In this document: positions 7,317 through 56,692 of the stretch, one piece after another
Layout of the letters: every line of letters begins with the position of its first letter
Numbering within the stretch: position 1 is the stretch's first letter
Assembly: GCA_005779305.1 (NCBI GenBank)
Contig: SXJR01000346.1
Location: 1-61,068, forward strand
From: Myxococcales bacterium
GTDB lineage: Bacteria; Myxococcota_A; Polyangia; Haliangiales; Haliangiaceae
Length of the DNA: 61,068 nt
Direction of reading: 5' to 3'
The notes under the pieces: model-generated
Told to the model about the DNA's origin: nothing
The model's database searches: none
Seen by the model: only the letters and a program-made list of their open reading frames with translations
Made by a program: the position numbers and the translations under genes

Positions 7317-8267
7317 ATGCGCTGTTCGATCGTGACTCGCCTGATCTCCGCCACCGTGCTCCTGTCCGCGTGCGCCGACGACGGCACCGGCGCCGACGAT
7401 CCGCTCCCGCCGCCGCCCGACGGTACCGGCTTTCAGATCAGCATGAACATCACCGTGCCGGCCGGCGAGGAGGCGTGGCTGTGCCAGGTCTCGCGCCTGC
7501 CCTCGCCCGAGTACACCGCCGTCAACCACGTCAAGTCGGTGCAGAGCGACGGCGTGCACCACATGGACGTGATGGCGCTGGCCTTCGCTGGCGTCGAGAT
7601 CCCGGTGGGCACCCACGAGTGTGATGCGCTCTACCGGGACTACCCACAGCTCATGGACGACGGCCTCATCCTCTACGCCGCGCAGCAGGCCGAGCAGGAG
7701 ATCACGTTGCCGCCTGGGACCGTGGCCAGCCTGCCCGGCAGCCTGCTGGTGATGCAGGAGATCCACTACGTCAACACCTCGCCCGATCCGATCGAGGCGT
7801 TCTCCAAGATCAACATCTACGAGTACGACCAGCCCATCACCAACGAGATCTGGGGCAGCGCGGTCCGCGACGTCGACATGGACATCCCGCCCGGCGAGTC
7901 GGTGCAGTGGACCCGCTGCGTGATGAACGACCCCATCGACCTCCTGTTCCTGTCGAGCCACACCCACGCCCTGGCCCGCAAGGTCGAGGTCCGCCTCTTC
8001 GACGGCCACAACGTCGGTGAGATGATCTACGAGAACCGCGACTGGGCCACGCCGGCGCTCAAGGACTTCGGCCAGCAGCCGCTGCACGTGCCGGCCGGTC
8101 AGGGATTCGAGTTCCAGTGCCACTACCGCAACGCCGGCACCGAGACCGTGCACTGGGGCTTCTCGGCCTCCGACGAGATGTGCCAGATCGCGCTGGTCTA
8201 CACGCCGGGCGTGGCGTCGCGGAAGTGCGAAGCGGTTGAAACCTCGGATGGCCTGGGCGTTCCGTAG
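7317..8267 (+). CDS. PHM-like copper type II ascorbate-dependent monooxygenase lipoprotein
   Basis: A 316-residue protein from the ATG that opens MRCSIVTRLISATVLLSAC; Cys19 is the probable lipobox cysteine, so it should be anchored in the periplasm or outer membrane. It has the full set of peptidylglycine/dopamine monooxygenase-type copper ligands: adjacent His81-His82 (DGVHHMDVM), His150 (MQEIHYVNT), the HTH pair His215/His217 (SSHTHALARKVEV) and Met288 (DEMCQIALVYTP). Expected chemistry is copper- and O2-dependent hydroxylation; the substrate is unknown. The frame stays open upstream, but the signal peptide fixes this start. It converges on the PRMT-like gene. Confidence 0.7.
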   Translation: MRCSIVTRLISATVLLSACADDGTGADDPLPPPPDGTGFQISMNITVPAGEEAWLCQVSRLPSPEYTAVNHVKSVQSDGVHHMDVMALAFAGVEIPVGTHECDALYRDYPQLMDDGLILYAAQQAEQEITLPPGTVASLPGSLLVMQEIHYVNTSPDPIEAFSKINIYEYDQPITNEIWGSAVRDVDMDIPPGESVQWTRCVMNDPIDLLFLSSHTHALARKVEVRLFDGHNVGEMIYENRDWATPALKDFGQQPLHVPAGQGFEFQCHYRNAGTETVHWGFSASDEMCQIALVYTPGVASRKCEAVETSDGLGVP

Positions 8268-8281
8268 CCGAGCCTCCAGGC

Positions 8282-8328
8282 ACGGAGGGAGTCCGTCCCC
8301 TCGATCTCTGTGGCCGGTCAGCCGGCCA
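8282..8328. terminator. Hairpins between convergent genes
   Basis: ACGGA (8282-8286) pairs with TCCGT (8292-8296). TGGCCGG (8311-8317) pairs perfectly with CCGGCCA (8322-8328) around TCAG, whose TCA is the stop of the minus-strand methyltransferase gene. The position suits a bidirectional transcript end; neither stem has a clear T-tract. Confidence 0.45.
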
Positions 8329-9505
8329 GGTCGACGATCAGCTGCTCGTGTTTGAGGTTGGACTCGCGCCAGGCGGCGATCGCCACCCGCGCGCCGGGCA
8401 AGACGGCGCATGACGCCGACACGGTGGTGACCCGTCGCTCCCAGTGCGTGCGCGGCGCGTCGGGCGCGTTGGTCAGGACGATGCCCCCGCCGAGATGGGC
8501 GCGGAAGTAGGTCACGATCGCGTCGAGGCGGCCGGGGCGAGTCACGACCAGCTCGCCGTGCACCGGCGCGGCGCAGGCGTCCTCTTCGACCACGGTCAGA
8601 TCGAGATCGTGCAGGAGTAGCGGCTCGGTCAGCACCTCGAACGGGACGTCGCCCAGATCGGTCACGAACGCGCGCGGCGGCAGCGCCGCGATCACCTCCG
8701 CCAGCGGCGCCAGCGCGGTGCCTACGCCCTCGACGCGAGCCAGGGCCGCGAGCGCCGCCTCGCGATCGTGGCCCTGACCGCGGGTGTCGACGCCCACACA
8801 TACGACCTCCAGCCGGTGCGGCACCAGCACGCCGCCCGGCGCGAGCAGCCGCCGGCGCGCGTCGGAGATCGTGGGCAGCACGCCCTCGGCCAGCGGGTCG
8901 TTGCCGAAGATCTCGTGCACGATCACGTCGACCGGCTGCTCCAGCTCGACGTCGCGGCTGGAGCGGCGCATCAGCACCACGTCGATCTCGGCGGCGGCGA
9001 AGACCTGGGCGGCGATGTCGGCGACCGCGGTCTCCTCGATGGCGATCACCTCGCGAGCGCCGGCCCGCGCCGCCAGCACGGAGAGCACGCCCGAGCCGGT
9101 GCCGAGATCGAGCACGCGCTGGCCCGGCGCCGCCACCTCGAGAGCGCGGCGGTAGGCGCTGACCCGGATGTCGTCCGACAGCATCTCGGCGTGGCGGAGC
9201 ACGTCGGCGAAGATGCCGATCACCGGCGGCGCGGCGGCCGAGCCGACCGGCACCAGGAACCCGCACTCGCGCAGGTGCTCCATGCCGCGGTCGAAGTCGG
9301 CCCGGTCGACGCCGAAGCGCTCCTCGACGCGGCCGAGCGCGGTCTCTTGGTCGACCCCGCCAGCGAACGCAAGCAGGGCCAGCAACAGATCGGGGGTCAG
9401 GGCCAGTGGCTCGTGCGAGATCGACGTCTGCCCGATCAGCGCGCCGGTCGGCGTGATGCGCAGCTCGAGCGCGTGCGACGGCGTGAAGCGAGCGGTTCGA
9501 TCCAT
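8318..9505 (-). CDS. PRMT-like SAM-dependent methyltransferase with N-terminal winged-helix/PqqD-like domain
   Basis: A 395-residue protein. Residues ~95-395 carry hallmarks of protein arginine methyltransferases: EMLSDDIRVSAY (helix X/Y motif, 107-118), the SAM loop DLGTGSG (133-139), a double-Glu loop HEIFGNDPLAE with Glu198 and Glu207 nine residues apart as in PRMT1, and a THW loop (PRTHWER) near the C-terminus. Residues ~1-90 read as a small helical/winged domain (LALTPDLLLALLAFAGG...LRECGFLVPV), like the peptide-recognition domains of RiPP maturases. It probably methylates a protein or peptide, substrate unknown. A divergent S1 protease gene starts 184 bp away. Confidence 0.7.
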   Translation of the reverse strand: MDRTARFTPSHALELRITPTGALIGQTSISHEPLALTPDLLLALLAFAGGVDQETALGRVEERFGVDRADFDRGMEHLRECGFLVPVGSAAAPPVIGIFADVLRHAEMLSDDIRVSAYRRALEVAAPGQRVLDLGTGSGVLSVLAARAGAREVIAIEETAVADIAAQVFAAAEIDVVLMRRSSRDVELEQPVDVIVHEIFGNDPLAEGVLPTISDARRRLLAPGGVLVPHRLEVVCVGVDTRGQGHDREAALAALARVEGVGTALAPLAEVIAALPPRAFVTDLGDVPFEVLTEPLLLHDLDLTVVEEDACAAPVHGELVVTRPGRLDAIVTYFRAHLGGGIVLTNAPDAPRTHWERRVTTVSASCAVLPGARVAIAAWRESNLKHEQLIVDLAG

Positions 9506-9689: not shown

Positions 9690-11147
9690 ATGCCAGCCAG
9701 AATCCTCCCCTCGCTCACCCCCCGCCTCTCCACCCTCCTGTTCGCCACCGCGGTCGCCACCGGCGCCGCCGCGTGCGGCGACAGCCCCGACACCGGAACC
9801 TCCGCCGACGAGATCATCGGCGGCGTCCCGGCCCGCAGCGCCAGGCTCAACGCGGTCGGCGCGCTAGGCTACGACGACTTCGGCAGCGGCAGCTTCCGGC
9901 CGGTGTGCACCGGCACCCTGATCGCGCCGACCATGGTGCTCACCGCCGAGCACTGCGTCGACTTCGTCACCGACGCCCCCAGCCAGCTCAAGTTCCTGAT
10001 CGGCTTCGACGCCTACAACCCGGTACGCACGGTGCCGGTGCACGGCGTGGCCATGGAGCAGTCGGACTGGGGCGGCGTGATCGGCCTCGGCATCGACATG
10101 GCGATCATGCACCTCGCCGAGCCGGTCACGAACGTCAGGCCGTTCCCGGTGGCCATCCCCACCGACAGCCAGCTCGACCTGCGCTTCGCCGGCATCGGCT
10201 ACGGCCTGCAGGACTCGACTGGCCGCCACGGCACCCGCATGACCGGCTCGATGACCTTCCAGGCCTCGGGCGGCCGGGTCTTCGAGGCCATCTACGGGAC
10301 GTTCGAGGACTTCGTCGCCGACGCCGCGCGCTTCGGCGTCGACGGCACCACCCCTGAAGGGCTCGCCCTCCTCCAGCAGGCGTGGGACGAGACGCTCCTG
10401 CTCGACAACCGCGTCGAGGGCTGGTTCGGCGGCGGGCGCCACGACGCCCAGGCCTGCTTCGGTGACTCGGGAGGCCCGATCACCAAGGCGGTCAACGGCC
10501 AGCCGACCGTCTACGGCGTGGCCTCGTGGGTGGCCTACGCCGACGAGAACCGCCTGTGTGACCTGGGCGCGGCCTACTCGACCATGACGCCGGTGGGGCT
10601 CGACTTCATCGCCTACGAGACCGCGTGTCCGCTGATCCCGAGGGCCGGCCAGTGTCTCGATCTGACCACCCACCAGCGTTGCGCCACCCCCGAGGAAGGC
10701 GGCTATCGCGAGCTGCTCAACGACTGCAGCGCGCTCGGCATGGTCTGCGGCGTCGACGAGGCCGGCGAGTTGGGTTGCATCGAGGACCCGTGCGAGAGCA
10801 TCGCGCCCGAGGGCCAGTGCGACGGTGACGTCGCGGTGCGCTGCACCAGGCCCGAGGAAGGCCCGCGCCGCGTGGTCTCGACCGACTGTGCCGACCTGGG
10901 CGGTTCCTGCGCCGTGACCGGCGACGGCGTGGAGTGCGTCGGCATCGAGTGCGCCCACGAGGTCTGCACCGAGGGTGTGGCGCTGTCCGACGAGTGCAAC
11001 GACTGCGTCACTGCCGTCTGCGACGTCGATCCCTACTGCTGCACCGTCGCCTGGGACGAGATCTGCGTGGGCGAGGCCGGCGCCGTGTGCGAGGTGACCT
11101 GCCCCGGCGCGCCCGTGATCGCCCCCGGTTCACGCAGCCGCGAATGA
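9690..11147 (+). CDS. Trypsin-like (S1) serine protease lipoprotein with cysteine-rich tail
   Basis: A 485-residue secreted endopeptidase. The signal peptide ends in ATGAAAC with Cys29 as probable lipid anchor. Activation-type IIGG is at 42-45. The triad is His88 (TAEHC), Asp136 (IDMAIMHL) and Ser260 (CFGDSGGP). After ~300 there are two Cys-rich repeats of GQCxD...RC type and a CTVAWDEICVGEAGAVC segment, a tail style common in myxobacterial exoproteins. It should act in the envelope or outside the cell. The stop is one base from the convergent lipoprotein stop (TGAGTCA). Confidence 0.88.
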   Translation: MPARILPSLTPRLSTLLFATAVATGAAACGDSPDTGTSADEIIGGVPARSARLNAVGALGYDDFGSGSFRPVCTGTLIAPTMVLTAEHCVDFVTDAPSQLKFLIGFDAYNPVRTVPVHGVAMEQSDWGGVIGLGIDMAIMHLAEPVTNVRPFPVAIPTDSQLDLRFAGIGYGLQDSTGRHGTRMTGSMTFQASGGRVFEAIYGTFEDFVADAARFGVDGTTPEGLALLQQAWDETLLLDNRVEGWFGGGRHDAQACFGDSGGPITKAVNGQPTVYGVASWVAYADENRLCDLGAAYSTMTPVGLDFIAYETACPLIPRAGQCLDLTTHQRCATPEEGGYRELLNDCSALGMVCGVDEAGELGCIEDPCESIAPEGQCDGDVAVRCTRPEEGPRRVVSTDCADLGGSCAVTGDGVECVGIECAHEVCTEGVALSDECNDCVTAVCDVDPYCCTVAWDEICVGEAGAVCEVTCPGAPVIAPGSRSRE

Positions 11148-50257: not shown

Positions 50258-51604
50258 GTGAATGTCGCCGCCCTGCCCGCCGCCCCGCGGCTCGCTCCCG
50301 TCGTCCCCGGCTGGCCCATCCTCGGCAGCGCCATTCCCATGGCGCGCGATCCGCTGGCGTTCCTGACCGCGGCCTACCGGAGGCTCGGCCCCATCTTCCG
50401 CGTCCGGGTGCCAGGCCGCGTGATCACCATCCTGGCCGGACCGGAGGCCAACCAGTTCATGAGCAAGGACAGCGAGACGCTGCTTCGCTCGACCGAGACC
50501 TGGCAGCCGTTCGTGGGGCTGTTCGGAGCCAAGCACAACGTCATCTCCAGCGACGGCGAGCTGCACTCCCGGCTACGCAAGATCATGAAGCGCAGCCATG
50601 GACGATCGATGGCTGCGCCGCACCTGCCGATGCTGACCGAGGTCGTGCGCGCGGGAGCCCTCGCCCTCCCGGTCGGCCGTCGTGTCGTCGTCATCTCGGC
50701 GCTGCGCCCGATGATCACCGAGCAGCTCGGGCGCCTCCTGGCCGGCCGCGCAGCGGCCGAACGGACCGATGATCTGGTGCGGGTCAACCGCGAGGCCACT
50801 GGCGTGTTCGTGGTCGGCGCACGGCCGGCGTGGACGTTGCGGTTGCCGCGTTACCGGCGCGCGCTGGCGCGGGTGCTCGCCCTCGGCGACGAGGTGCTGC
50901 GTGCCCACCGTGAAACGCCGCGCGACCCGGCGGCGTCGGATCTGATCGACGACCTGCTCGCAGCCGCCGCCGCCGATCCATCGCTTCTGTCCGAGGCCGA
51001 TCTGCGCATGGCCGCGATCGGCCCGTTCATCGCCGGCCTCGACACGGTGGCCAACGCCTGCGCCTTCCTCCTCTACGAGCTCCTCACGCGCGACGACGTG
51101 CGGGCCCGCGTCGTCGCAGAGGTCGACGAGCTCTTCGCCGCCGGGCCGCCCACCCTCGAGGGGCTGCGCTCACTGCGCACGCTGCACGCGGCCGCCATGG
51201 AGGCGCTGCGCCTGCATCCCATCTCGCCGGCACTCGCCCGCAACGCCGCGCGCGACTTCTCGTTCGCCGGTCACGACGTTCGCGAAGGCGACCCCATCCT
51301 CGTCGCGACCGGAGTCTCGCACTTCCTGCCCGAGCTCTGGGATCGCCCGGCGGAGTTCGACCTGCAGCGCTTCGAGGGGCCGCGAAAGCCCGGCGCGTAT
51401 GCACCGTACGGTCTGGGGCCGCACACCTGCCTCGGCGCCAGCCTGGCCGACGTGCAGGTGGTGATCCTGGTGGCGACGCTGCTCCATACCGTCGAGCTGC
51501 GCCTCGATCCGGCTGGATACCGGCTGCGCACGATCCTGTCGCCGGGGCCGACGCCGGACGCGGGCTTCGGGATGACGGTGGTCGGTCAGCGCGCGAACCG
51601 GTAG
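50258..51604 (+). CDS. Cytochrome P450
   Basis: A 448-residue soluble heme monooxygenase. I-helix: [16 protein letters not shown] (oxygen-activating Gly/Asp-Thr). K-helix ExxR: Glu315-Arg318 in [12 protein letters not shown]. Heme loop [16 protein letters not shown] with Cys391; the usual Phe of FxxGxxxCxG is Tyr. Near-N-terminal [19 protein letters not shown] is typical of the CYP51/sterol/fatty-acid type proline-rich hinge. Start is GTG at 50258 just after two palindromes; the frame is open further up but the text there is not protein-like. It converges on the lipid-modification operon with 19 bp overlap, so it may act on the same acyl chains. Confidence 0.88.
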
Positions 51605-52617
51605 TGCGAGACCCACCACTCCTCGCCGCCGCGCCAGCCGAACAGCTCCTCGCACGCCATGAAGAAGATCCGCCAGCGATGGAGCCACCGGTCGGCGTCT
51701 GCGTCGCCGTAGGCCCGGGCCAGCACGCGGCGCACGTCGCCGCGGCGGTCGTCGAGGTTGTCGAGCCAGGCGCGCGCGGTTCGCGCGTAGTGCGTGCCGT
51801 TGACCCGCCAGTGCTCCTCGATCCGGAGGTCGCGCTGGAAATACAGGAGCAGATCGTCGCTGGGCATGATCCCGCCGGTGAAGAACCAGCGACCCATCCA
51901 GTTTCCGGGTTCGTCGTCGGCGACGAACGGGTACGCGGCGGTGCGGTGGCAGAAGATGTGGACGAACAGCTTGCCGCCGGGCGCGAGCCAGCGCGCGATC
52001 CGCGCCAGCAGCGCCTCGTAGTTGCGCATGTACTCGAACATCTCGACCGAGACCACGCGATCGAACGCGCCCTCGGCCTCGAAGGTGTTCATGTCGGCGG
52101 TGATGACGGTGACGTTGGTGAGTCCGCGGCGGCGGCACTCGGCCTCGATGTGTGCGCGTTGCGACGCCGAGTTCGACACCGCGGTGATGCGCGCGAGCGG
52201 CAGCCGGGCCGCCATGGCGAGGGTGAGCGAGCCCCAGCCACAGCCGAGCTCGAGGATCGACATCCCGTCCGCCACCTCGGCGCGCTCCATCGTGAGCGCG
52301 AGCATCGCGTCCTCGGCGTCGTCGAGCCGGTCGACGCCGGGCGGGAAGAAGGCGCTCGAGTACTTGCGGTGCTTGCCAAGGACCAGGCCGAAGAACTCGG
52401 CGGGCACCTCGTAGTGCTGGGCGTTGGCCTTGTCCACCTCGAGCGCGATCGGACTTCCGCGTAGCTCGTCCACGAACCGCTGCTGGGTCCGGCGCAGGTC
52501 GCGCGCGGTGCGCTGCTCGGCGGCGAGCCGGGACCGCAGGAGCCAGTGGATGCCGGTGCGGATCACGGGGTCGGGCAACCAGCCGCGCTCGGCGGCGTCG
52601 ATCGTGCGGGCGAACAT
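51586..52617 (-). CDS. CFA-synthase/coclaurine-N-methyltransferase-like SAM methyltransferase
   Basis: A 343-residue enzyme. The N-terminal helical region and [20 protein letters not shown] with YSSAFFP are shared by the CFA synthase superfamily; the SAM loop is [16 protein letters not shown], and [14 protein letters not shown] lines the active site. It is closer to the plant coclaurine-N-methyltransferase-like subgroup than to classic Cfa, and lacks the Cfa N-terminal domain. It probably adds a methyl or methylene to an unsaturated lipid. TGA of the DUF1295 gene is one base before its ATG (TGAGATG). Last gene of the five-gene operon. Confidence 0.8.
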
Positions 52618-52618
52618 C

Positions 52619-53410
52619 TCAGGCCTCCTCGGGATCGGGCTTCGGGAACCAGGGGACAAACACGCTGGTGGTGCGCTGGTAGGCTCGGTAGTCGTCGCCA
52701 CGGCTGCGCAGCGCCTGGGCCTCGGTGTGGGGGATGCCAGTGACCTTGATCAGGAAGGCGAGCATCACGGCCGGACCGAGGAGCGCGACCCAGCCGTGCG
52801 GCGCGCCCCAGGCGATCGCGACGTAGGCCCACCAGGTGATCCACTCGAAGAAGTAGTTGGGGTGCCGCGAGTAGCGCCACAGGCCGTCGCGGCAGGTCTT
52901 GCCGCGCTGGTCGGCGCGGGCCCGGAACCGCGCCAGCTGGGCGTCGGCGATCGCCTCGCCGCCGACGCCGATCGCCCAGATCACCACGCCGACGGCGTCG
53001 GTCCAGGCGAGCGGGCGATCACCACCCATCGCGATCACGAGCGGGATCGAGAACATCACCGACCAGATCGCCTGGACCTGGAAGAACACGAAGAAGTTGC
53101 GGTTCGCGCGATCGCCCCACGCCGCGCGGAGCGCGCGGTAGCGACCGTCCTCGACGCGGGCGCCGCCCAGGATGCGGCGCCCGAGGTGCCACGCCAGCCG
53201 CGCGCCCCAGATGGCGCCGAGCGCGCCGACCAGCGCGCGCCGCTCGGCGAGCCCATCACCGGCGAGCGCGTAGAGCACCGCCAGCGCCGCGATGGCCGCG
53301 CTCCAGCCGACGTCGACCAGGCTGGCATCGGACCGACGGCGCTGATCCCACCACAGCGCCACCTGCCCCAGCGCCACCGCGCCCCACCCGATCCCGACCA
53401 GCCAGGTCAA
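52619..53410 (-). CDS. DUF1295 (steroid 5-alpha-reductase-like) membrane protein
   Basis: A 263-residue inner-membrane protein with about six hydrophobic helices. The family signature is [20 protein letters not shown], followed by [19 protein letters not shown] and [18 protein letters not shown]. Relatives reduce or isomerise double bonds in lipids or sterols using NAD(P)H. The start is TTG at 53410, whose TTGA overlaps the stop of the CFA gene; no ATG exists early in the frame and the resulting length fits the family. It sits between two CFA-type genes in one operon. Confidence 0.82.
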
Positions 53411-54657
53411 GCGGGCGCTCGCCAGCCCGGGCGCACCAGGTGGAGGTGGTCCACGCCGATGTAACGCTCGCGGAACCCGCCCTCGCAGTAGGCGAGGTAG
53501 TAATCCCAGGCCCGCAGGGTGACGTCGTCGAACCCTTGCGCGCGCGCCTCGTCGAGCCGGGCCAGCAACGCGGTTCGCCACCTCGCCAGCGTGGTCGCGT
53601 AGTGCTCGGTGAGGTCGTCGAGCCGGCGCAGCACGAGATCGCTCGATCGGGTCGCCGCTCCGACCAGCGCCGTCACCGACGGGATGCAGCTGCCCGGGAA
53701 GATGTGGCGCTTGAGGAAGTCGATCTCGCCGGCGGCGCGCTCGAACTCCTGGTCGCGGATCACGATCGCCTGGAGCACGGCCTCGCCCTCGGGACGGAGC
53801 AGACGCTGGATCGTGGCGAAGAAGTCACCGAGGTGGTCGCGGCCGACCGCCTCGATCATCTCGATCGACACCAGCGTGTCGTAGCGCCCCTGCAGGTCGC
53901 GGTAGTCGTCGCGCCTGACCTCGACCCGGTCGGCGAGCCCGGCCGCGGCCACGCGGCGCGTGGCCTCGGCGTGCTGGCGGCGCGAGATCGTCGTGGTCGT
54001 CACCCGGCAGCCGTACCGGCTCGCAGCGTGGATCGCGAACCCGCCCCAGCCGGTGCCGATCTCGACCACGTGATCGTCGGCGCTCAGTCGGAGGATCTGA
54101 CAGATCCGATCGTACTTGGCGCGCTGCGCGTCGGCGAGCGGCTGATCGGGGCGCTCGAAGAGCGCCGCGGAGTAGGTCATGGTCTCGTCGAGGAACAGGC
54201 GGAAGAACTCGTCGCCCAGATCGTAGTGGGCGGCGATGTTCTTGCGGCTCCCGGAGCGGGTGTTGCGGGTGAGCAGCGCATGCGCCCGTCGCATCGGCGC
54301 GGTGGCCAGAGCGAGGCCGCGCTCGAGGCCGTTGGTGACATCGGCGTTTCGCGCCATCAGCCGGATGAGCGCGGGCAGATCGTCGGTTCGCCAGGCGCCG
54401 GCCATGTACTGCTCGCCGAGGCCAAGCGTCCCGCCCAGCGTGGCAGCAACGTAGACCGCCGGGTCCAGCACCTGGACGGTGACCTCCTTGGGGAAGGCCG
54501 GGGTGACGTGCCCGAACCGAGTCACCCCGTCCGGATCGACGATCCGCAGCGCGCCGTCGGCGAGCCGCTGGAATCGCCCGAACAGGAGGCGCCGGGCCAG
54601 GCGCTGCGGGAGCGGGATCGGCGAGGCCAGGGTCAACTCCAGAGGGGACGTGCTCAT
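53407..54657 (-). CDS. cfa: Cyclopropane-fatty-acyl-phospholipid synthase
   Basis: A 416-residue SAM-dependent enzyme that methylenates double bonds of membrane acyl chains. N-terminal lipid-contact domain ~1-130 (GEQYMAGAWRTDDLPALIRL), then NIAAHYDLGDEFFRLFLDET, MTYSAALFE, the SAM loop VEIGTGWGGFAIHA, active-site Glu in SIEMIEAVG, and IFPGSCIPSV, all standard Cfa landmarks. Length is slightly over the E. coli enzyme. ATG 54657 overlaps the stop of the DUF1365 gene (ATGA), and its own stop overlaps the TTG start of the DUF1295 gene. Confidence 0.9.
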   Translation of the reverse strand: MSTSPLELTLASPIPLPQRLARRLLFGRFQRLADGALRIVDPDGVTRFGHVTPAFPKEVTVQVLDPAVYVAATLGGTLGLGEQYMAGAWRTDDLPALIRLMARNADVTNGLERGLALATAPMRRAHALLTRNTRSGSRKNIAAHYDLGDEFFRLFLDETMTYSAALFERPDQPLADAQRAKYDRICQILRLSADDHVVEIGTGWGGFAIHAASRYGCRVTTTTISRRQHAEATRRVAAAGLADRVEVRRDDYRDLQGRYDTLVSIEMIEAVGRDHLGDFFATIQRLLRPEGEAVLQAIVIRDQEFERAAGEIDFLKRHIFPGSCIPSVTALVGAATRSSDLVLRRLDDLTEHYATTLARWRTALLARLDEARAQGFDDVTLRAWDYYLAYCEGGFRERYIGVDHLHLVRPGWRAPA

Positions 54658-55430
54658 GACATCGCTCCATGGGTCCGCGGGTGGTCGTGGACCGGCGCTC
54701 GGCGCAGCCACAGCTGGAGCGCCTGCCAGTAGATCCGGGCGAGCACGGTGCCGGTCATCACCGGGAACCGGGCGAGCACGCCGGCGAGATGGCGGCGATC
54801 GAGCGGGCGCCGCGTCAGCGTCAGGGTCGCGTCGAGCACGACGCCGCTGCGATCGTTGCAGTCCATGTGGACGACCAGGCGCTCGCCAGGCGGCGTGAAT
54901 CGCCAGTCGTAGCCGAGCTCGAGGGGCAGAAACGGCGACACGTGGAAGGCCTTGGCGAAGCGGTGGCGTTGCTTGCCCGCACCGTTCGAGGGCAAGACGT
55001 AGACGTGGCGCTCGTCCCACGGCGTGTTCGAGACCTCGGCGACGATCGCCTCCACCTCGCGCCCGGCGGTGTCCCAGCAGTAGAAGAAGCTGACCGGGTT
55101 CATGGCCAACCCGAGGTGGCGGGCGTGTGTGAGCAGGCCGATCGGTCCGCGCGGACGCGGCGCGCCGGCGCGCTCGACCAGCCCGCGCACCACCTCGGCG
55201 AGCGGCTGCCCGGGCGCGCCGCAGCCGGCGAGATGGTCGGCGCGATCCATCCGCGTCATCGCCGGTCGTCGCACCCCGAGCAACGGCCAGAGCTCGGCGT
55301 CGATCGCGTCGAGCTCGTCGAGATCGAGGTAGCCGAAGTACAGCGGGTAGGTGAACGCGCGCCGGATCGGCGCGAAGCGGCGGTGGCGCACCTCGCCCAC
55401 GTACAGTGCGCTGCGGACGATCCCGTTCAT
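54654..55430 (-). CDS. DUF1365 protein
   Basis: A 258-residue protein of the DUF1365 (COG3496) family: SALYVGEVRHRRFAPIRRAF and TYPLYFGYLDLDEL at the N-terminus, the diagnostic LLTHARHLGLAMNPVSFFYC, then EVSNTPWDERHVYVL and AKAFHVSPFLPLELGYDW. There is no membrane segment except perhaps a C-terminal hydrophobic helix. Chemistry is unknown; it is almost always found next to the FAD amine-oxidase-like and CFA genes, as here, so it should act in the same lipid modification. Both ends overlap neighbours by ATGA. Confidence 0.88.
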   Translation of the reverse strand: MNGIVRSALYVGEVRHRRFAPIRRAFTYPLYFGYLDLDELDAIDAELWPLLGVRRPAMTRMDRADHLAGCGAPGQPLAEVVRGLVERAGAPRPRGPIGLLTHARHLGLAMNPVSFFYCWDTAGREVEAIVAEVSNTPWDERHVYVLPSNGAGKQRHRFAKAFHVSPFLPLELGYDWRFTPPGERLVVHMDCNDRSGVVLDATLTLTRRPLDRRHLAGVLARFPVMTGTVLARIYWQALQLWLRRAPVHDHPRTHGAMS

Positions 55431-56692
55431 GCCACCGCCGCCAGCCGGGCGCCCAGGGCCGCCACCACAGCGTCGGCGGCGCGGTAGCCGCTGCGCACGC
55501 CGTCCTCGTGACAGCCGTAGAACCAGTAGGCGCCGGCGAACCAGGTCCGTCCCGTCGGTGGGCAGACCTCGCGCCACCGTTGCTGGGCCACGTGGGTTGC
55601 GGCGGTGAAGACCGGATGGTCGTAGGTGTACCGGCCGAGCACCTTGGCCAGGTCGACCGCGTCCGGCTCGTTGAGCGTGACGAGGAACCGCTCGCGGTCC
55701 ACGATGCCCTGCAGCAAGCTCATGTCGTAGGTCACGGTCGCGGGCCGCGCCGACTCGGCGTGGACATGGTAGTTCCACGCCGCCCAGGCCCGTCGCGCCC
55801 GGGGGAGCAACGACGTGTCGGTGTGCAGGGTGACGTCGTTGTGCTGGTAAGCGATCGAGCCCACCACGGCGCGCTCGACGGGGGTCGCGTCGGCGAGCAG
55901 CCGCATCGCCTGATCGCTGTGGCAGGCGAGGACGACGTGGTCGTAGCGCTCCACGCCCGCGGCGACCGCGATCTCGACGCCGCCGTCGCGGCGGCGCACC
56001 CGCTCGACGGGCGTGCGCAGGCGGATGCGATCGGCGAACGGCCGGATCAGGCGGCGGACGTATTGACGTGAGCCGCCGGTGATCGTCCGCCACTGCGGCC
56101 GGCGCCAGAGGTCGAGGAAGCGGTGGTTGGCAAAGAACTCGACCAGCGTGCGCGCCGGGAACTGGCCGATCTGACCCGGCGGCGCCGACCAGATCGCGGC
56201 GGCCATGGGGACGAGGAAGCGATCGCGAAACGTCGCCGAGAACCGTTGCCGCGCCAGGTACGCGTCGAGTGTGGTGGTGTGATCGTCGCTGTCGAGCAGC
56301 GACCGCGCCACCCGATTGAAGCGGACGATCTCGGCCAGCATGCCCCAGTGCCGGCGATCGAGCAGGTTGCGGGGCTGAGCGAACACACTCGCGAGGTTGG
56401 TCGCGGCGTACTCGATGCCGGTGGCGTCGTCGCGCACGCCGAAGCTCATCGTGCTCGGCCGCGTGTCCACCCGCAGCTCGGCCAGCAGCGCCGTGAAGCG
56501 CGGGTAGGTCAGCTCGTTGTTGACGATGAAGCCGGTGTCGACCGCGTGGCCGAGCACGTCGACGGTCGCGGTGTGGCCGCCGACGTGAGCGCCGGCCTCG
56601 AACAGCGTCAGGTCATGCTGCCCGGCCTGGAACAGGCGATGGGCCGCCGACAGACCGGCGATTCCGGTGCCGATGATCGCGATGCGCGCCAT
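55427..56692 (-). CDS. FAD-dependent amine-oxidase-like oxidoreductase (COG2907 type)
   Basis: A 421-residue flavoprotein. N-terminal Rossmann motif IAIIGTGIAGLSAAHRL with GxGxxG and Glu ending the second strand (LTLFEAGAHVGGHT). The segment AVDTGFIVNNELTYPRFTAL is typical of this group, and the C-terminal FAD contact is WFAGAYWFYGCHEDGVRSGY. Members flank CFA synthase and DUF1365 and have been linked to oxidation of methylated or cyclopropane acyl chains. First gene of the operon; its ATG follows a long intergenic region, so the operon promoter should lie above 56692. Confidence 0.85.
   Translation of the reverse strand: MARIAIIGTGIAGLSAAHRLFQAGQHDLTLFEAGAHVGGHTATVDVLGHAVDTGFIVNNELTYPRFTALLAELRVDTRPSTMSFGVRDDATGIEYAATNLASVFAQPRNLLDRRHWGMLAEIVRFNRVARSLLDSDDHTTTLDAYLARQRFSATFRDRFLVPMAAAIWSAPPGQIGQFPARTLVEFFANHRFLDLWRRPQWRTITGGSRQYVRRLIRPFADRIRLRTPVERVRRRDGGVEIAVAAGVERYDHVVLACHSDQAMRLLADATPVERAVVGSIAYQHNDVTLHTDTSLLPRARRAWAAWNYHVHAESARPATVTYDMSLLQGIVDRERFLVTLNEPDAVDLAKVLGRYTYDHPVFTAATHVAQQRWREVCPPTGRTWFAGAYWFYGCHEDGVRSGYRAADAVVAALGARLAAVA

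Follow-up and report, generated by a model that had tools for sequence, protein, structure and literature searches.

A Myxococcota PRMT-family methyltransferase with an N-terminal RRE-like domain

The PRMT family is best known from animals and plants, in connection with eukaryotic chromatin and RNA-binding proteins, and its omega-N-methylation of arginine in peptide chains is for the most part regarded as a eukaryotic trait. In a 61,068-nucleotide stretch of DNA from a Myxococcales bacterium (the whole of which we call the window), a gene on the reverse strand, at positions 8318 to 9505, encodes a PRMT-like protein with an additional N-terminal domain. What does such a bacterial protein act on, and what might the extra domain contribute?

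The PRMT core and its active-site residues

The open reading frame starts with ATG, encodes 395 amino acids (the coordinates include the stop codon), and has coding-type codon usage according to a model trained on the window. Full-length orthologues are present in two congeneric genomes (71% and 68% identity) and, at 56%, in a genome from the same order, all three with the same N-terminal domain; in a third congener, a 70%-identity fragment covering the C-terminal part of the fusion protein lies at a contig end. As judged from its coding score and orthologues, the fusion gene is real and conserved. A search for viral relatives gave no match among viral contigs.

Residues 99 to 395 are a PRMT-family methyltransferase, in agreement with the initial annotation, which had proposed a PRMT-like enzyme. 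In phmmer searches against the PDB, human PRMT8 was matched with an E value of 8.4e-25 over residues 103 to 371 and PRMT1 with 7e-23, and Pfam PRMT_C matched residues 288 to 376 with 34.9 bits (cut-off, 27). Given the PRMT8 E value and a PRMT_C score above the cut-off, the PRMT signal is far beyond chance. Two other assignments were rejected. The Pfam match to the ribosomal L11 methyltransferase PrmA is limited to residues 125 to 201, with the NCBIfam prmA equivalogs far below cut-off, and the PADLOC match to the defence gene mad2 (E value of 6e-11) spans no more than the generic SAM core (residues 108 to 228) and falls far short of the PRMT match in strength.

The motifs that led to this annotation were all found where they had been placed: EMLSDDIRVSAY at residues 107 to 118, DLGTGSG at 133 to 139 within SAM-binding motif I (VLDLGTGSG, residues 131 to 139; positions 9089 to 9115, reverse strand), the two spaced glutamates, and THW. 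E198 and E207 lie in HEIFGNDPLAEG, an E-x8-E arrangement in which the glutamates are nine apart, as PRMTs space them in their double-Glu loop (here EIFGNDPLAE; 8885 to 8914, reverse strand). The THW loop (residues 353 to 355; 8441 to 8449, reverse strand) ends the segment APDAPRTHW (347 to 355), whose counterpart in human PRMT8 is APDAPYTHW. Residue mapping on PRMT8 and about 60 relatives showed that H105, M108, R114, E157, E198, E207, H354, and W355 match PRMT residues, the first three corresponding to H45, M48, and R54 of PRMT1. The glutamates and THW are retained in the orthologues.

Two segments of the window protein differ from the familiar PRMTs. The double-Glu loop reads HEIFGNDPLAE against SEWMGYCLFYE in PRMTs. 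In the N-terminal helix region (F99 to R114; 9164 to 9211, reverse strand; aligned with PRMT8 and more than 60 relatives), F99 occupies the second Tyr position of the YFxxY motif and V95 the first, as counted by spacing from H105; the second Tyr is retained in Myxococcota PRMTs that lack the N-terminal domain, such as that of L006. The Tyr-to-Phe change concerns this single motif and not the catalytic glutamates.

The initial annotation had held that a predicted structure lacking the PRMT barrel would speak against it. The full-length AlphaFold model (mean pLDDT of 72.6 from an eight-sequence alignment) matches PRMTs and so did not refute the annotation: Foldseek returned PRMT3, TbPRMT7, PRMT8, and PRMT1 with E values of 5e-23 to 1e-21 and TM scores of 0.7 to 0.75 normalized to target length, with an rmsd to PRMT structures of about 10 Å and a pLDDT below 50 for residues 244 to 285, the expected dimer arm, which makes the modeled placement of the arm tentative. 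AlphaFold, Foldseek, and the PRMT_C match together point to a C-terminal beta-barrel part at residues 286 to 395 (8321 to 8650, reverse strand).

The N-terminal RRE-like domain

The core is preceded by residues 1 to 88 (9242 to 9505, reverse strand), an RRE-like (PqqD-like) winged-helix domain. That the protein has an extra N-terminal domain of about 90 residues, as annotated, is borne out by its conservation in the orthologues and by a pLDDT of 83 when it was modeled alone from five sequences. Its identity to the three orthologues is 74, 59, and 51%, against 72, 73, and 62% for the Rossmann part, so that its conservation equals that of the core for the closest pair and is somewhat lower at greater distance.

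AlphaFold places strands at residues 6 to 9, 13 to 17, and 23 to 27, helices at 38 to 46, 53 to 64, and 68 to 80, and a further strand at 84 to 86, an order that is nearly identical in the full-length model. The domain thus shows the beta3-alpha3 order by which a 2025 survey strictly defines an RRE (PMC12710340); MarR-type domains are ordered differently. According to the same survey, false RREs are known to arise from winged-helix folds and RRE fold searches yield many false positives, and therefore the element order, checked here, matters.

Among the first 40 Foldseek matches of the domain in the PDB, almost all are RRE-bearing proteins, including MccB, TruD, TbtB, TigE, MadB, LynD, ThcOx, and the lasso B1 proteins TfuB1 and TbiB1 with leaders bound. 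The best of these matches (MccB, TruD, TbtB, LynD, and lasso B1) have a probability of 1.00, yet modest E values, from 2.7e-3 to 4e-2. A YcfD-like arginyl hydroxylase and PKMT1 are also found, with weaker E values of 0.1 to 0.3. In a direct hhalign comparison with a profile of 25 PqqD domains of the same class, the N-terminal domain scored 43.5 with a probability of about 95 (hhalign E values here refer to one pair and not to a database), whereas none of 60 column shuffles scored above 17.7 and MarR scored 27.8.

At the sequence level, a Pfam search with the N-terminal domain alone gave no match at all; PqqD (PF05402) matched neither the domain nor anything in its own genome, and a sequence search of the domain against the PDB returned nothing significant. 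Many accepted RREs likewise escape PF05402, and therefore the missing match lowers the case for RRE membership and does not exclude it. A MarR-type DNA-binding domain was rejected: MarR_2 matched two orthologues at E values of 0.03 to 0.14, the element order is wrong, and the hhalign probability is 64, against 95 for PqqD. TAL-effector matches of the domain profile in the PDB cover only residues 27 to 60 and were taken as chance leucine-rich matches; an apparent second copy of the domain in the same genome (best E value of 0.02, with an internal stop) was taken as noise. The annotated RiPP-type character of the domain is favored by element order, Foldseek, and hhalign, but not by Pfam. On the predicted structure, the domain has an RRE-like fold.

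Distribution and genomic surroundings

The initial annotation had called this set of arginine methyltransferase motifs rare in bacteria. This does not hold for Myxococcota: 63 of 379 genomes have a PRMT-like match at an E value of ≤1e-20, and PRMT-like proteins are thus not rare in this phylum. The fusion itself recurs across Myxococcota. We collected 28 proteins with the same kind of N-terminal domain before a PRMT core. Every one of the 28 retains the two loop glutamates as well as the Trp of THW, and in most the His-Trp pair is intact. In a quick tree, whose automatic N-terminal-domain labels are too generous for a few long open frames, the window clade falls together with the Myxococcus sp. 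CA023 protein, the G474 protein, three others, and a domain-less clade (SH-aLRT of 95). The sister of this group (SH-aLRT of 90) consists of about twenty fusion proteins, most of them from family f14. The two sister groups have homologous N-terminal domains (hhalign probability of 96.4 with separate sets).

Other PRMT-like proteins were also noted. A second clade without the N-terminal domain (SH-aLRT of 99) comprises L017, L064, L138, L204:7533-8735, L208:13136-14338, and L210:1024-2160, and lies in or near lasso clusters in L017, L064, L204, and L210; L204, L208, and L210 each have one gene of the fusion type and one of the domain-less type. Where checked (L017, L064, and L138), the double Glu is lost (SDLRG...), and judging from this loop these proteins may modify another group. 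A third fusion clade with a shorter N-terminal domain (MKLVRLGDLSAAFQPDGAILVRS...) includes L062, L063, L066, L088, L119, L120, and L133 to L137; its loop reads TETFG or SETIG, and in L080 and L081 it adjoins an oligopeptide-transporter-like gene. The PRMT-like proteins of L015 and L016 lack the double Glu and have a small C-terminal helical domain that is RRE-like by eye. Those of Verrucomicrobia/Opitutae (L035 to L039) have an HEQMGD loop, PHW for THW, and no RRE-like domain, and no conserved cluster was seen around them.

Around the window gene, the sole linked partner is a gene for a PHM/DBM-like copper monooxygenase lipoprotein (7317 to 8267, forward strand; Pfam Cu2_monoox_C, E value of 1.2e-9), which lies tail to tail with it; a trypsin-like gene (9690 to 11147) lies on the other side. 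The monooxygenase sequence shows apparent copper ligands (HH, HTH, and a late Met). Among seven genomes of the genus, both genes of the pair are present in G000, G001, G002, and G005 and both are absent from G003, G004, and G006, and the TPR gene adjoining the pair was found in all six congeners searched; in G004 it is followed directly by the trypsin gene. Because they are gained and lost together while the TPR gene stays, the fusion gene and the copper monooxygenase gene make up one accessory block within this genus. Their association does not hold everywhere, since the genome with the order-level orthologue (G031) had no copper monooxygenase match. In G005 (L032, 11826 to 21185), prophage-like genes lie between the two, which are about 14 kb apart.

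The window gene is outside any lasso-peptide cluster. No lasso precursor pattern was found in the window, none of the five window-clade genomes (G000, G001, G002, G005, and G031) has Transglut_core3, and no precursor or other RiPP genes lie beside the window gene or its orthologues. A local precursor was considered and rejected: there is no conserved small or leader-type open reading frame, and the upstream gap is 184 bp (38 bp in L031). Apart from the 75%-complete G000, every congener has a single PqqD gene, and this includes the species without the PRMT. No biosynthetic genes flank the window gene. Elsewhere in the window (50339 to 56692), P450, cyclopropane-fatty-acid-synthase-like, DUF1295-like, DUF1365-like, and amine-oxidase-like genes, assigned by eye, form a block that looks like a cyclopropane/branched fatty-acid cluster.

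Fusion genes of the sister group are often found in or near lasso-peptide clusters. In L076 (G164), PqqD, Transglut_core3, Asn_synthase, the fusion gene, an HPr-kinase-like (HprK) gene, and a nucleotidyltransferase gene occur together, as confirmed by Pfam. Subsets of lasso genes, identified with home-made HMMs and a leader pattern within the stretch read, are near the fusion gene in nine more loci (L078, L204, L205, L209, L210, L212, L214, L070, and L079), and in L205 the fusion and PqqD genes overlap by four bases. No lasso cluster was seen in L207, L208, L211, and L216, and several other loci end too early to show one.

In L076 (core AGGRRRRDGLLTRAPS) and L079 (core AGGVRRRDGINTRAPS), searches with the leader pattern Y-x2-P-x-L...G...T placed a precursor immediately upstream of the fusion gene. 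Both cores are Arg-rich, with RRRR or VRRR in the ring, and have Asp at position 8, as expected for a lasso ring. Arg is present in all nine cores found near fusion genes, of which those in L070, L210, and L214 are 4 to 6 kb away; with Arg assumed at about 8% over 15 residues, this would arise by chance in roughly 5% of cases, which makes it only mildly unusual for high-GC peptides and weak evidence by itself. Because relatives of the window protein adjoin genes for Arg-rich lasso peptides, bacteria may use the PRMT family on arginine in ribosomal peptides.

A different setting is seen in Myxococcus sp. CA023 (L034, 521 to 21172), where an RRE-PRMT fusion of the same architecture (35 to 37% identity) lies in an NRPS cluster with a fatty-acyl-AMP ligase, an MFS transporter, a CmcI-like gene, two cupin-8/JmjC oxygenases, and a 466-amino-acid protein without a Pfam match. 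We regard it as a candidate methylarginine-lipopeptide cluster in a cultured genus. As this relative belongs to an NRPS cluster and other members have unrelated genes as neighbors, the fusion clade is not uniformly RiPP-linked.

Possible substrates and comparison with known systems

We tentatively favor, at slightly short of an even chance, the reading that the window protein is an RRE-fused PRMT and that it acts as an N-methyltransferase on arginine of a peptide or protein whose gene lies elsewhere. Most likely, the N-terminal RRE-fold domain would hold a leader-like segment of the peptide substrate as an added strand, and the bound peptide's own arginine would be delivered to the PRMT active site. 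There, E198 and E207 would grip the guanidinium while H354 and W355 shape the pocket, and the product would be omega-N-methylarginine. The initial annotation had also suggested methylation of a peptide or specific protein; this is indirectly supported by relatives in lasso clusters with Arg-bearing precursors, but the window itself has neither a precursor nor a lasso maturation gene. A broader proposal, which we consider less likely than not, is that an RRE-guided class of bacterial PRMTs methylates arginine in ribosomal peptides of Myxococcota, including Arg-rich lasso rings, and that the window protein, presumably working like its relatives, represents a stand-alone branch whose peptide is encoded elsewhere.

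The lone position of the window gene, with no precursor, no RiPP genes around it, and no lasso machinery in its clade, would also suit a PRMT that acts on one or a few folded cellular proteins and has no RiPP link here. Its winged helix would then be a general protein-binding or dimer domain, comparable to those of the ribosomal oxygenase YcfD and the Rickettsia lysine methyltransferase PKMT1, both represented among the fold matches of the N-terminal domain. However, these matches are weaker than those to RREs, the sister clade is found in lasso clusters, and presence in only four of seven genus genomes is less expected of a housekeeping modification; we consider this explanation rather unlikely.

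A methyltransferase acting on a small-molecule guanidine, such as free arginine or the carrier-bound arginine of a nonribosomal peptide, has a precedent in SznE, a characterized bacterial arginine methyltransferase, a 31%-identical homologue of which led to the saskemycin cluster (PMC12637814). Such a role would fit the Myxococcus sp. CA023 relative, in its NRPS/fatty-acyl-AMP-ligase cluster with two cupin-8 oxygenases. The window gene, however, is not flanked by biosynthetic genes, and a free amino acid needs no conserved domain of a peptide-binding type, which makes this role improbable for the window protein. Because the second domain-less clade has lost the double Glu, the PRMT-like family probably changes chemistry, and this loss within lasso clusters, together with the Tyr-to-Phe change at F99, could hint at a changed acceptor atom in the window protein (carboxyl O-methylation or another side chain), but with both glutamates kept there and in all fusion relatives, and the His-Trp pair in most, we find this very improbable.

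If the favored reading is true, the fusion would give a bacterial PRMT defined peptide substrates and offer a route to methylarginine RiPPs, and RRE-PRMT fusions would serve for comparison in tracing how eukaryotic PRMTs arose. In the open-access literature searched, neither RRE-PRMT fusions nor PRMT-linked lasso clusters turned up, and the 2025 RRE survey does not mention such a fusion in its main text (PMC12710340).

Among known systems, the eukaryotic type I PRMTs (PRMT1, PRMT3, and PRMT8) share with the fusion protein the SAM domain, the H-x2-ML...R N-terminal helix, the PRMT_C barrel, the double-Glu loop with its nine-residue spacing, and the APDAPxTHW loop. Unlike them, the fusion protein is bacterial, has F99 for the N-helix Tyr and HEIFG for SEWMG, and carries the extra RRE-like domain. 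In RRE-fused maturases (MccB, TruD/LynD, TbtB, and ThcOx), a beta3-alpha3 winged helix is likewise N-terminal to the catalytic domain, and lasso B1 and PqqD proteins are discrete RRE forms of the fold found in the fusion N-terminal domain. The fusion protein differs from these maturases in that its N-terminal domain has no Pfam PqqD match, the window has no adjacent precursor, and the catalytic partner is a PRMT.

SznE of streptozotocin biosynthesis is similar by description, as a bacterial enzyme named an arginine methyltransferase (PMC12637814), but it serves a small-molecule pathway, whereas the window gene is in no small-molecule cluster. Finally, the fusion relatives resemble the lasso tailoring methyltransferases (the aspartimide-forming LihM and the C-terminal carboxyl methyltransferases) in being methyltransferases recruited to lasso clusters (PMC13352647). 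Unlike those enzymes, which act on carboxyl groups, the fusion relatives have the PRMT fold with the double Glu, and two of them adjoin Arg-rich cores.
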